Assembly: GCA_012729055.1 (NCBI GenBank)
Contig: JAAYDW010000099.1
Location: forward strand, 1 to 64,000
Source: Deltaproteobacteria bacterium
Lineage (GTDB): Bacteria; Desulfobacterota; Syntrophia; Syntrophales; Smithellaceae
DNA length: 64,000 nucleotides
Reading direction: 5' to 3'
The position numbers and the translations under genes were made by a program. Shown one piece after another: positions 17,776 through 24,106 of the stretch (positions within the stretch are counted from its first letter, which is position 1; each line of letters opens with the position of its first letter). A model generated the notes under the pieces. That model ran no database searches. It had not been told where the DNA came from and worked only from the letters and a program-made list of their open reading frames with translations.

Positions 17776-18522
17776 TTACGGCATTTGCGCGATGATGCTC
17801 AAAAAACCGTCCGGTTTAAGCGATGCGCCGCCGACCAGCGCTCCGTCGATGTCGGCCATGGCGGCCAGTTCCGCGACATTTTCCTTTGTGACGCTGCCGC
17901 CGTAGAGAATGCGCAGCTCATCGGCCGCCGCCCCGTAGAGCTTTCGGATCAGGCTGCGGACGAAAGCATGCACCTCCTCGGCCTGCGCGGAGGTGGCGAC
18001 TTTGCCCGTGCCGATGGCCCAGACCGGTTCGTAGGCGATGACGACGTCGGCCAGCGTTTCCACGCCCGCCAGCGCGCCCTGCACCTGGCGGCCGACGACG
18101 GACTCGGTCACGCCCTGAATCCTTTCCTCATCCGTTTCGCCCACACAGACGATCGGCTTCAGGCCTGAGGCGAGCGCTTTTTTCACTTTCCGGTTGACGC
18201 CGTCGTCCGTTTCGGAAAAGTATTTGCGCCGTTCCGAATGACCGATAAGGACGTAAGCGCAGCCGGCGTCTTTGAGCATGACGGGAGAAATTTCACCCGT
18301 GAAGGCGCCCTTGTCTTCGCTGTACATGTTTTGCGCGGCCAGCTGCACCGCCCCGCCCCGGAGGGTTTCGGCCACTGCGGTAAGCGCGGTAAACGGCGGA
18401 GCCACCACGACTTCGCCGCTTGCCGAACCGGAAAGTCCGCCCTTAATCGCGCGGGCCAGGGCAACGGATTCGCTGATGGTGTTGTGCATCTTCCAGTTGC
18501 CGGCAACAATCCATTTTCTCAT
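17776..18522 (-). CDS. tpiA: Triosephosphate isomerase
   Basis: 248 residues, normal for the family. It interconverts glyceraldehyde 3-phosphate and dihydroxyacetone phosphate. The start at 18522 gives MRKWIVAGNWKMHN with N and K of the active site, preceded by GGAGG; an upstream in-frame ATG would add six residues. The catalytic His lies in LIGHSERR and the catalytic Glu in AYEPVWAIGTGK, the second being the complete signature. The phosphate-binding YGGSV and GGASL segments are present. It is last in the gap-pgk-tpiA order, starting 15 bases after the pgk stop. Confidence 0.97.
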   Translation of the reverse strand: MRKWIVAGNWKMHNTISESVALARAIKGGLSGSASGEVVVAPPFTALTAVAETLRGGAVQLAAQNMYSEDKGAFTGEISPVMLKDAGCAYVLIGHSERRKYFSETDDGVNRKVKKALASGLKPIVCVGETDEERIQGVTESVVGRQVQGALAGVETLADVVIAYEPVWAIGTGKVATSAQAEEVHAFVRSLIRKLYGAAADELRILYGGSVTKENVAELAAMADIDGALVGGASLKPDGFLSIIAQMP

Positions 18523-18536
18523 GAGGATCCTCCGCA

Positions 18537-19712
18537 TCAACCCAGCGCCGCGACTGCGGGCAGGGTCTTGCCTTCGAGCAGCTCGAGAAACGCGCCGCCG
18601 CCGGTGGAGATGTAGGAGATCTTGTCGCTTTTTCCCGTCTTGTGAATGGCCGTGTCCGTATCGCCGCCGCCCACGATCGTGAGCGCGCCGGACGCCACCG
18701 CCGCGTCCACCAGTGAAAAAGTGCCTTTGGCGAAGGGCGCCAGTTCAAACATGCCCAGCGGTCCGTTCCAGACAATCGTCTTGGCGGACTTCACCGCGTC
18801 GGAAAACGCCGCAATCGTGGCGGGGCCGATGTCGAGGCCCATCCAGTCGTCGGGAATATTCTTCGCGTCCACGACCTTGACTTCCGCATCCGCCGCCGGC
18901 GTCTGGGCGATGACCGCATCGACCGGCAGGAGGAACTGCACGTTTTTGGCTTTGGCTTTCTCCAGAATCGTTCTGGCCAGATCCAGCATGTCCGTTTCAC
19001 ACAGAGACTTGCCGACATTGTACCCCTGGGCTTTCAGGAACGTGAACGCCATGCCGCCGCCGACGACCAGACGGTCGACTTTGTCGATGACGTTTTCCAG
19101 AACCTTGATTTTGTCGGAAACCTTGGCGCCGCCGATGATGGCGGCAAGCGGCCGGGCCGGATTTCCCATGGCTTTGTTGAAATACTCGATTTCGTTTTTG
19201 AGCAAAAAGCCCGCGGCGCAGACGGGGACGAATTTCGTGATGGCGGTGTTGGAAGCCGCCGCGCGGTGCGAAACGGCAAACGCGTCGTTGATGTACACGT
19301 CGCAGAGCTTGGCCAGTTCCTGGGCAAACGCGTCGTCGTTTTTGTCTTCGCCCGGATAAAACCGCAGATTCTCGAGCAGGATTACGTCGCCCGCCTGCAT
19401 GGCGGCCACGGCCTCAAGCACTTTTTCACCGATGCAGTCGTCGATGAAGGGCACGTCCTTTTTCAGCAGGGACGAAAAAACCGGCGCGACCGGTTTCAGA
19501 GAAAATTCTTCCACTTTCTTGCCCTTGGGACGGCCCAGGTGGGACGCCACGATCACACGGGCGCCTTTTTCGCGAATGTAATTGATGGTGGTTAAACTCG
19601 CCTTGACGCGGGTATCGTCTTTGACCTGCCCGGACTTGTCCATCGGCACGTTGAAGTCCACCCGCACAAAAACCCTCTTTCCGCTGACATCAATCGAATC
19701 TAAGTACTTCAT
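18537..19712 (-). CDS. pgk: Phosphoglycerate kinase
   Basis: 391 residues, the usual bacterial length. The start at 19712 gives MKYLDSIDVSGKRVFVRVDF, containing the signature RVDFNVP, with AGAGAGG upstream. ATP-domain motifs are present: GGAKVSDKI, NGPLGMFE and the C-terminal VGGGDTDTAI. It makes ATP from 1,3-bisphosphoglycerate in glycolysis, or works in reverse in gluconeogenesis. It lies between gap and tpiA. Confidence 0.97.
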   Translation of the reverse strand: MKYLDSIDVSGKRVFVRVDFNVPMDKSGQVKDDTRVKASLTTINYIREKGARVIVASHLGRPKGKKVEEFSLKPVAPVFSSLLKKDVPFIDDCIGEKVLEAVAAMQAGDVILLENLRFYPGEDKNDDAFAQELAKLCDVYINDAFAVSHRAAASNTAITKFVPVCAAGFLLKNEIEYFNKAMGNPARPLAAIIGGAKVSDKIKVLENVIDKVDRLVVGGGMAFTFLKAQGYNVGKSLCETDMLDLARTILEKAKAKNVQFLLPVDAVIAQTPAADAEVKVVDAKNIPDDWMGLDIGPATIAAFSDAVKSAKTIVWNGPLGMFELAPFAKGTFSLVDAAVASGALTIVGGGDTDTAIHKTGKSDKISYISTGGGAFLELLEGKTLPAVAALG

Positions 19713-19849
19713 GCGTTCTACCTCTCTGGAATATTTTGAATTGCCCTTCCGGCGCGAAATCCGCACGGCGCTAAACGCGTCTTGCGGATTTATCGACCGG
19801 AATGACAAAGACATTGTGGATCAGTGATCCGGCGCATTCGATGTTCGTC

Positions 19850-20848
19850 TCATTTCATGATAAACGACAGCAGTTCCAGCATCCGGTTGGAGAAGCCCCA
19901 CTCATTGTCGTACCAGGAGAGGATTTTCACCATCTTGCCGCCGATGACGGTGGTGTTGGGCAGATCCACAATCGACGAATGCGGATTGCCGCTGAAATCC
20001 TTGGAGACCAGTTCTTCTTCCGAGCAGAACAAAATGCCCTTCATGGCCCGCTCGGCGTATTGCTTGAGCTTGGCGTTCACTTCCTGCCTGTTGGTTTCGC
20101 GCGCGAGCGTCGCCACGAAATCGACCAGCGAAACATTGGGCGTGGGCACGCGGATCGCGAGGCCGTCGAGACGGCCTTTCATTTCCGGAATGACTTCGGC
20201 AATTGCGCGGGCCGCGCCGGTGGTCGTGGGAATCATCGAGAGCGCGGACGCGCGCGCGCGCCTAAGGTCCTTATGCGGTTCGTCGATGACCACCTGGTCG
20301 TTGGTGTACGAATGGATCGTCGTCATCAGCCCGTGCTCGATCCCGAATTCCTCATGCAGGATTTTCACGATCGGCGCCAGGCAGTTGGTGGTGCAGGACC
20401 CCATCGAAATAATGTGGTGTTTGGTTTTGTCGTAAACTTCCGCGTTGACGCCGAAAACGAACGTCACGTCCGGCCCCTTGGCCGGAGCGGAAATGACGAC
20501 CTTCCTGGCTCCGGCTTTCAGGTGTTTCTCCGCGCCGTCGCGGTCGGTAAATCTTCCCGTGCTTTCCAGAACAACATCCACCCCCAGGTCTCTCCAGGGC
20601 AGCATTTCCGGATCGCGGACGGCGAAAGCCTTGATTTCGCGGCCGTCAACGATGATGCCGTTGGACGCGGCTTTCACTTCCGCGTCGAGTGTCCCATGAA
20701 TCGAATCATATTTCAAAAGATGAGCGAGTGTTTTGGCGTCGGCAAGATCATTGACTGCAACGAATTCGACTTCCTTGCTGCGAAAACCGGCCCGAAACAC
20801 CAGACGGCCGATCCTCCCGAATCCGTTAATTGCAATCTTTACAGCCAT
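19850..20848 (-). CDS. gapA: Glyceraldehyde-3-phosphate dehydrogenase, type I
   Basis: 332 residues. The Rossmann start is MAVKIAINGFGRIGRLVFRA; the active-site Cys lies in SMGSCTTNCLAP near residue 152, and the downstream His segment is EHGLMTTIHSYTNDQ. The NAD-binding loop has VAVND, consistent with NAD use. AGGAGG precedes the ATG. It is the first gene of the leftward gap-pgk-tpiA unit. Confidence 0.97.
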   Translation of the reverse strand: MAVKIAINGFGRIGRLVFRAGFRSKEVEFVAVNDLADAKTLAHLLKYDSIHGTLDAEVKAASNGIIVDGREIKAFAVRDPEMLPWRDLGVDVVLESTGRFTDRDGAEKHLKAGARKVVISAPAKGPDVTFVFGVNAEVYDKTKHHIISMGSCTTNCLAPIVKILHEEFGIEHGLMTTIHSYTNDQVVIDEPHKDLRRARASALSMIPTTTGAARAIAEVIPEMKGRLDGLAIRVPTPNVSLVDFVATLARETNRQEVNAKLKQYAERAMKGILFCSEEELVSKDFSGNPHSSIVDLPNTTVIGGKMVKILSWYDNEWGFSNRMLELLSFIMK

Positions 20849-21150: not shown

Positions 21151-22575
<1,425 letters not shown>

Positions 22576-22622: not shown

Positions 22623-22880
22623 ATGCAGATTTTAGCGTTCAACGGTTCTCCCCGCCCCCAGGGCAACACATCCGCCGTTTTGGCCGCCATGCTCGAAGGC
22701 GCGCGGTCGCGCGGCGCCGAGGCGGTGGAAATCCGCCTGCACGACAGTGACTTCAAAGGCGGCCTGGGCTTCGAAGGGGTCGGCCGCATTCTGCACACCC
22801 AGAGCGCGGATAAGCCCGCCGCATCCGACCGGGCGCTTCTGGAACGGGCCTTCGACATCGGCCGGAAGATGGTCCGGTGA
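22623..22880 (+). pseudogene. Flavodoxin-family reductase gene with an internal deletion
   Basis: 85 residues from the ATG at 22623 (GAGGAG upstream). The N-terminus, MQILAFNGSPRPQGNTSAVL, is a full FMN-loop start of the NADPH-dependent FMN reductase / iron-sulfur flavoprotein type. After DSDFKG the protein jumps to a segment resembling the C-terminal end of such proteins (DRALLERAFDIGRKMV). The middle, with the cysteine cluster and second flavin loop, about 100 residues, is absent. It is either a decayed gene with an in-frame deletion or a short product. Its stop overlaps the GTG start of the next gene. Confidence 0.65.
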
Positions 22881-24106
22881 AAATCCTTATGAGCGACGAC
22901 AAGCTGTATATTGTTTTGATGGGACTGCCGGCCCGCGGCAAATCCACGCTGGCGGTCCGCCTGCGCGACGCGTTCCGGAAGGACGGAATCGCCACGCGCA
23001 TCTTCAACAACGGCAATCTGCGCCGGATTTACCGGCCGCTGGCGGAAACCTCGTCGGCCGAGTTTTATTCGCCCGGCAACGCCGCCGCCGTGGAGATGCG
23101 CAAAACCTTTGCCCGCATGAACATGGAGCGCGCCAAAGCCTATCTGCGCAACGCCGGGCAGGTGGCGATTCTCGATGCGACCAACGCCGGCCGGGAGCGC
23201 CGGGCAATGCTGGAAGCGTATCTCGACGATCACCCGCTGCTTTTCATCGAATGCGCGAACGACGACGAGGACATTCTGGCGCTGAGCATCCGGGAAAAGA
23301 CAAAGCTGCCGGAATTTCGCCATCTGGGCGGCGACAAAGCCCGGGAGGAGTTTTTAAAGCGCATCGCCTACTACAGGATGATCTACAGTCCGCTGGGGCC
23401 CGAAAGAAACTTTGTGCGCCTGGAGTCGCTGCAAAACAAAATTCTCGAGGAAAAGCACACCGATGCGATCGGGCTGTACGTCCAGTTGCGCGATTATCTG
23501 GTGACGGACGAGGTGAAAAACCTGTTTCTCATCCGCCACACCCAGACGGAATACAACCTCGAAGACCGCATCGGCGGCGATCCGGAGCTCACCGCCCGGG
23601 GAAAAGAGCAGGCCGAAGCGCTGGGACAGTTTTTCAGCGCAAAGAAGATCTCCTACATTTTTACCAGCAGCAAACGGAGGACCCGCAAAACGGCGGAGGC
23701 GATCGCGGCCCGGCAGACGGACTGCCGGATCATCGCGCTCAAAGAGTTTGATGAAATTCACGCCGGTATCTGCGAGGGCATGACCTACGCCGAAATTGAA
23801 AAAAACCTGCCGCAGATCTTCCTCGAGCGGGAGGCGCACAAATACGACTACGTCTATCCCGAGGGCGAAAGCTACGCGCTCATGAAGCTGCGGGTTGAAG
23901 CCGGCATCAAGAAGTCCTTTTTCCTCAACCGGCGCTCCAGCAACATTATGATTGTCGGCCACCAGGCGGTCAACCGGATGATCCTGTCGCATTTCCTGTA
24001 CCGCCGCGAAGAGGACGTTCCGTACATTTACGTTCCCCAGGACCGTTTTTACCATATCGTTTCCACGCAGCATAAGAAGCTGTTTGAACTCAAACGCTAT
24101 GACTGA
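22877..24106 (+). CDS. Bifunctional 6-phosphofructo-2-kinase/fructose-2,6-bisphosphatase homologue
   Basis: 409 residues from GTG 22877 (overlapping the previous stop by four bases); ATG 22889 is an alternative start. Residues 10-200 match PFK-2: Walker A VLMGLPARGKSTL near 13-25, VAILDATNAGRERRAML near 96-110, and REEFLKRIAYYRMIYSPLGP, a counterpart of the conserved FLKRIE.YE..YQPL stretch of eukaryotic enzymes. Residues 215-400 match FBPase-2, a histidine phosphatase: LIRHTQTEYN (catalytic His about 220), IGGDPELTARGKEQAEALG, EIHAGICEGMTYAEIE (catalytic Glu) and VGHQAVNRMILSHF (second His). Domain order and motifs are those of PFKFB. It would make and break fructose 2,6-bisphosphate. One deviation is RHT instead of RHG in the phosphatase motif. 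The neighbours are pyk and the triose genes. Confidence 0.88.
   Translation: MKILMSDDKLYIVLMGLPARGKSTLAVRLRDAFRKDGIATRIFNNGNLRRIYRPLAETSSAEFYSPGNAAAVEMRKTFARMNMERAKAYLRNAGQVAILDATNAGRERRAMLEAYLDDHPLLFIECANDDEDILALSIREKTKLPEFRHLGGDKAREEFLKRIAYYRMIYSPLGPERNFVRLESLQNKILEEKHTDAIGLYVQLRDYLVTDEVKNLFLIRHTQTEYNLEDRIGGDPELTARGKEQAEALGQFFSAKKISYIFTSSKRRTRKTAEAIAARQTDCRIIALKEFDEIHAGICEGMTYAEIEKNLPQIFLEREAHKYDYVYPEGESYALMKLRVEAGIKKSFFLNRRSSNIMIVGHQAVNRMILSHFLYRREEDVPYIYVPQDRFYHIVSTQHKKLFELKRYD

Follow-up and report, generated by a model that had tools for sequence, protein, structure and literature searches.

A bacterial homologue of the bifunctional PFK-2/FBPase-2 enzyme in Smithellaceae and its predicted fructose 2,6-bisphosphate chemistry

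Fructose 2,6-bisphosphate (F2,6BP) is a regulator of eukaryotic glycolysis and is taught as a eukaryotic one, and the PFK-2/FBPase-2 family is known mainly from eukaryotes. The described systems against which the present locus can be set are the vertebrate enzymes PFKFB1-4 and the plant F2KP/PPi-PFK system, in which F2KP carries a long N-terminal region and PFP belongs to a different PFK subgroup. The recent reviews consulted treat F2,6BP for animals, fungi and plants only, and an archaeal annotation paper gives the EC number to a Methanobrevibacter protein by annotation alone. We found no report of a characterised bacterial PFK-2/FBPase-2 in the open-access literature; earlier evolutionary papers may mention bacterial homologues. 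The family itself is well known; what is new here is the bacterial presence of the enzyme and its strict conservation, although genes of this kind may already have entries in protein databases.

The window, that is the whole stretch of 64,000 nucleotides of Smithellaceae contig JAAYDW010000099.1 that was analysed, contains an open reading frame at 22877-24106 on the plus strand. An earlier note had read it as a bacterial counterpart of PFKFB with both halves in the eukaryotic order, and the reading frame and the motifs quoted for it were all found in the sequence. Since the stop codon of the upstream reading frame overlaps with the GTG at 22877 and the homologues share the methionine encoded at 22889, the true start is probably the ATG, from which the residues below are numbered.

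22889..24106, plus strand: PFK-2/FBPase-2 homologue (PFK2), 405 aa from the ATG; the alternative GTG at 22877 gives 409 aa
22892..23407, plus strand: 6-phosphofructo-2-kinase domain (6PF2K), with Walker A GLPARGKS, R45/R46, R71, D96, T98, R104, K137, R158 and Y162
23522..24070, plus strand: fructose-2,6-bisphosphatase domain (His_Phos_1), with R216-H217, N223, IGGD 228-231, R264, E289, Y300 and R314, and further K318, Y329, H358-Q359 and R363

In the Pfam search 6PF2K covers residues 6-177 (E 7.3e-36; 124 bits against a curated cut-off of 27) and His_Phos_1 covers residues 216-398 (E 7.4e-39), the histidine phosphatase domain being fused C-terminal to 6PF2K in a single chain as in PFKFB. The best PDB matches found by phmmer are human PFKFB2, PFKFB3 and PFKFB1, which align full-length and co-linearly over residues 5-394 (E 2.5e-64 and up), a similarity well past what chance would give. 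A search of the genome returned this single 6PF2K gene and no second copy. The claimed presence of both PFKFB halves in PFKFB order was borne out by the Pfam domains, the phmmer co-linearity, the residues and the modelled fold alike, and sequence and model give strong support to the protein's assignment as a bacterial PFK-2/FBPase-2 homologue that has both halves.

A reading as two unrelated kinase and phosphatase domains was also considered and fails. The profile of the kinase half found twelve PFKFB chains in the PDB (E 8e-40 to 8e-35) before the next protein, an APS kinase at 7.5e-4, and both modelled folds are those of PFKFB. APS kinase and gluconate kinase share the P-loop kinase core, but give a Z of about 15 compared with 28 for PFKFB, with a sequence match confined to the surroundings of the P-loop. 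The CobC/PhoE-type histidine phosphatases share the fold and the RHG/H catalytic residues of the second half, but are only 21-25% identical, have no kinase half and gave NCBIfam matches that were all below the cut-offs.

The kinase half as modelled by AlphaFold2 (pLDDT 90) superimposes on 1bif with a Z of 28 and an rmsd of 1.6 A over 198 residues. Across the PFKFB structures Z is 27-28 and the rmsd 1.6-2.0 A over ~199 residues, compared with a Z of 15.6 and 3.3 A for the next family. The PFKFB3 residues that hold F6P or pocket inhibitors, namely Arg74, Arg75, Arg98, Asp124, Thr126, Arg132, Arg189 and Tyr193 (PMC3177832), correspond here to R45, R46, R71, D96, T98, R104, R158 and Y162, and none of them is missing from the alignment. 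Across 60 bacterial homologues neither these residues nor Walker A K18 and K137 vary, except for the F6P-contacting Thr of the DATN motif, in place of which 14 of the sequences have Asn, Ala, Ser or Gly (e.g. L044, L049, L013 and L057). Substrate affinity may differ in these substituted homologues, and we count the variation against our main reading, although the window protein keeps the Thr.

The modelled phosphatase domain superimposes on the rat liver bisphosphatase 1fbt with a Z of 24 and an rmsd of 2.0 A. We take R259, H260, N266, G272, E329, Y340, R354, K358, Y369, H394, Q395 and R399 (liver-enzyme numbering) to be the catalytic and F2,6BP-binding residues, and the equivalents of all of these except Q395 are invariant in the 60 bacterial homologues; at position 395 the window protein has Gln, and the bacterial homologues have either Gln or Arg. 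The peripheral equivalents of Cys162 and Arg362 vary among the 60 and are Asn and Val here. At the position that is Ser in PFKFB3, a weak bisphosphatase with a kinase:phosphatase ratio of 740:1 (PMC6937325), all bacterial sequences have Arg.

The full-length model (pLDDT 86.6) gave structure alignments over residues 1-405 with a Z of about 30, and each of its best 27 structure matches is a PFKFB enzyme or the bisphosphatase domain of one. The whole-chain rmsd is 16-18 A compared with ~2 A per domain, meaning only that the domains are placed differently in the model, where their orientation is a predicted one. The window protein has ~5 residues ahead of its first kinase strand and no sequence beyond the phosphatase fold, and on comparison with the animal isoforms it lacks both the N-terminal autoregulatory extension, as described for PFKFB3 (PMC6937325), and the C-terminal regulatory tail. 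Extension and tail are features of the animal isoforms rather than core criteria of the PFK-2/FBPase-2 family. The protein thus resembles PFKFB1-4 in domain order, co-linearity, catalytic and substrate residues, kinase fold (1.6 A) and phosphatase fold (2.0 A), but differs in its identity to them of 31-38%, in having no N-terminal extension or long C-terminal tail, in the Asn and Val at the Cys162 and Arg362 equivalents and in its bacterial host. The plant system is alike in core enzyme type and in that the window's genome also has an FBPase and a PFK with PPi-type signatures, and unlike in the long N-terminal region of F2KP and the PFK subgroup of PFP.

The predicted F2,6BP chemistry is well supported by the residues and the modelled folds, and we consider it likely that the gene encodes a bifunctional PFK-2/FBPase-2 whose product, F2,6BP, sets the direction of the F6P/F1,6BP step via class I FBPase and possibly a PPi-type PFK. 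The N-terminal half would transfer the gamma-phosphate of ATP to O2 of fructose 6-phosphate, and the C-terminal half would take the phosphate off again via a phospho-histidine at H217, with E289 as acid/base, such that the level of F2,6BP would determine the direction. The most likely target would be class I fructose-1,6-bisphosphatase, which would be inhibited, while a second PFK with PPi-type signatures may be a further target, perhaps favoured by F2,6BP. Since the window protein has no N-terminal extension, its kinase:phosphatase balance is probably set by metabolites rather than by an animal-type autoregulatory hairpin or by phosphorylation.

Close homologues in public genomes come from Smithella, Smithellaceae, Syntrophaceae and other former Deltaproteobacteria. 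With a positive call set at E < 1e-29 (weaker matches resemble generic P-loop proteins), PFK2 was found in 57 genomes, spread over 10 families, out of 395 sampled from the phylum. Within the order it is present in 31 of 149 genomes, nearly all in the window's family, where genera are mixed and some members have PFK2 and others do not. In the gene tree, 58 of the 59 bacterial sequences form one clade that branches largely by family and is distant from PFKFB2/3, these two vertebrate sequences being the tree's only eukaryotic members. Since the gene occurs in so many genomes and families and its tree follows the families, its long residence within the phylum is supported, and by these sequence comparisons PFK2 is a long-resident bacterial gene and not a stray acquisition. 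Searches of plasmids and phages gave matches to the histidine-phosphatase half only, no relatives of the window protein were found on viral contigs, and none of the 14 control genomes from other phyla had a match above the 6PF2K cut-off.

Candidate partners of the proposed switch co-occur with PFK2. Class I FBPase was found in 57 of 57 PFK2-positive genomes compared with 172 of 338 PFK2-negative ones (Fisher p 2e-15, kinship ignored), and counted by family in 10 of 10 compared with 61 of 107 (p 0.003, kinship ignored). The class I FBPase of this genome (L066) matches PF00316 with 121 bits and PF18913 with 144 bits, both above cut-off. PFK was present in 56 of the 57 PFK2-positive genomes and in 294 of the 338 others; genome G229, which has PFK2 and class I FBPase and in which PF00365 phosphofructokinase was not detected at 95% completeness, stands against the main reading. 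Besides the ATP-type PFK L065, the window's genome encodes a second PFK, L064. The signature sought for PPi-dependence was Asp for Gly in GGD(D/G), plus PKTIDXD, and L064 carries GGED and PKTIDAD; its best NCBIfam models are mixed or ATP-type. An L064-type PFK is present within the order in 26 of 31 PFK2-positive and 31 of 118 PFK2-negative genomes (kinship ignored), and within the window's family in 23 of 28 and 6 of 17, respectively (p 0.003, kinship ignored). The characterised bacterial PPi-PFKs are all reported to be non-allosteric and the plant ones to respond to F2,6BP (PMC12203962); the former we counted against the main reading.

The neighbourhood of the gene in the window is as follows.

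17776..20848, minus strand: tpiA, pgk and gap, divergent from pyk; a block present in close relatives only
21151..22575, plus strand: pyruvate kinase gene (pyk), the upstream neighbour in close relatives only
22623..22880, plus strand: remnant of an NADPH-dependent FMN reductase gene, between pyk and PFK2, with an internal in-frame loss

The positions given earlier for the glycolytic genes hold, as pyk ends ~300 bases upstream of PFK2 and gap-pgk-tpiA lies near, on the opposite strand. The block tpiA-pgk-gap / pyk / FMN reductase / PFK2 is common to the close relatives L032, L034, L040 and L048, in which the FMN reductase is intact at 189 codons; the window's version has 85 codons, ~100 internal codons having gone in frame. 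Two further loci (L035 and L036) retain gap-pgk-tpiA, and the search for pyk was negative there. The glycolytic block is missing from the remaining loci with enough flank, several from Smithella included, and in other lineages PFK2 is found beside threonine synthase, DHQ synthase, GGDEF proteins and others. Since the pyk and gap-pgk-tpiA position is confined to close relatives it has little functional weight, and the glycolytic neighbourhood was rejected as functional evidence, being lost in other Smithella-group genomes and in other families.

The proximity of fbp carries more functional weight. Two other families have fbp on the same strand as PFK2 at a distance of 3-5 kb, in 10 of 14 genomes. 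At the loci inspected, genes for an AI-2E family transporter and a response regulator come with fbp, followed by as many as four opposite-strand genes and then by PFK2; the arrangement is one of proximity and not an operon. The opposite-strand genes of this conserved block (L067-L073) encode an HGD-D-like dehydratase, a metallophosphatase, a radical SAM protein and a Bax1-I membrane protein. In the window's own genome fbp is on another contig and not beside PFK2, which speaks against the main reading. The role in switching between glycolysis and gluconeogenesis that the earlier note had proposed remains plausible, with the FBPase co-occurrence and the fbp proximity as independent support, but the argument it had drawn from glycolytic neighbours is a weak one.

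Several other explanations have to be weighed against this. A true homologue could have shifted to another sugar phosphate, e.g. sedoheptulose 7-phosphate or another ketose phosphate, such that its product would not be F2,6BP. The identity to PFKFB of only 31-38% and the variable Thr in 14 of 60 homologues would fit such a shift, but the 60 sequences share every Arg, Lys and Tyr that holds F6P in PFKFB3 and, bar the one Gln/Arg position, all F2,6BP-binding residues of the phosphatase, and the constant partner is class I FBPase, making this reading unlikely. We regard it as improbable that the enzyme is effectively monofunctional, with a single dominant half (e.g. a bisphosphatase that disposes of an unwanted sugar bisphosphate) and without any F2,6BP cycle serving regulation. 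Family members in certain lineages of unicellular eukaryotes are known to have lost one of the two activities, and the Arg at the PFKFB3 Ser position predicts a strong phosphatase; nevertheless the constraint on Walker A, on D96 and on the F6P pocket is the same as that on the phosphatase site in 60 of 60 sequences.

F2,6BP might also be made but act on the neighbouring pyruvate kinase, as in trypanosomatids, whose pyruvate kinase is F2,6BP-activated. This precedent, and the fact that in the window and in several close relatives pyk lies 300 bases upstream of PFK2, are set against the absence of that neighbourhood in other Smithella-group genomes and other families. Furthermore, the C-terminal effector region of the pyruvate kinase, GHPIGVPGTTNTIQV, has no Trp/Arg loop, which we take to be the mark of sugar-bisphosphate-activated pyruvate kinases, and an action on this enzyme appears very improbable. 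A recent, non-functional import from a eukaryote, suggested by the mainly eukaryotic occurrence of the family, is hardly credible, being contradicted by the spread over 57 genomes and 10 families and by the conservation of the residues; the tree follows the families with the bacterial clade far from PFKFB, and the GC3 of the gene (0.776) lies within that of its neighbours (0.73-0.80).

The reading of PFK2 as a bifunctional enzyme acting through F2,6BP on class I FBPase suggests, from sequence comparison, that this control signal also operates in some bacteria. If so, it would work in anaerobic syntrophic and sulfate-reducing bacteria, F2,6BP-sensitive FBPase and PFK would be expected in them, and the finding would bear on the origin of the eukaryotic bifunctional enzyme. 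A wider proposal, put forward tentatively and with more doubt than belief, is that F2,6BP signalling on class I FBPase and PPi-type PFK is old and vertical in Desulfobacterota and independent of eukaryotes, this phylum possibly being the source lineage of the eukaryotic enzyme. Two homologues depart from the general pattern. In genome G518 (contig 33) the gene has two in-frame stops and represents a pseudogene or an assembly error. L002 (genome G359, family f63) is a divergent homologue that stands apart from the main bacterial clade in the tree; it shares 37-38% identity with PFKFB2/3 and 35% with the window protein, keeps the Cys162 and Arg362 of PFKFB and is possibly of separate origin.
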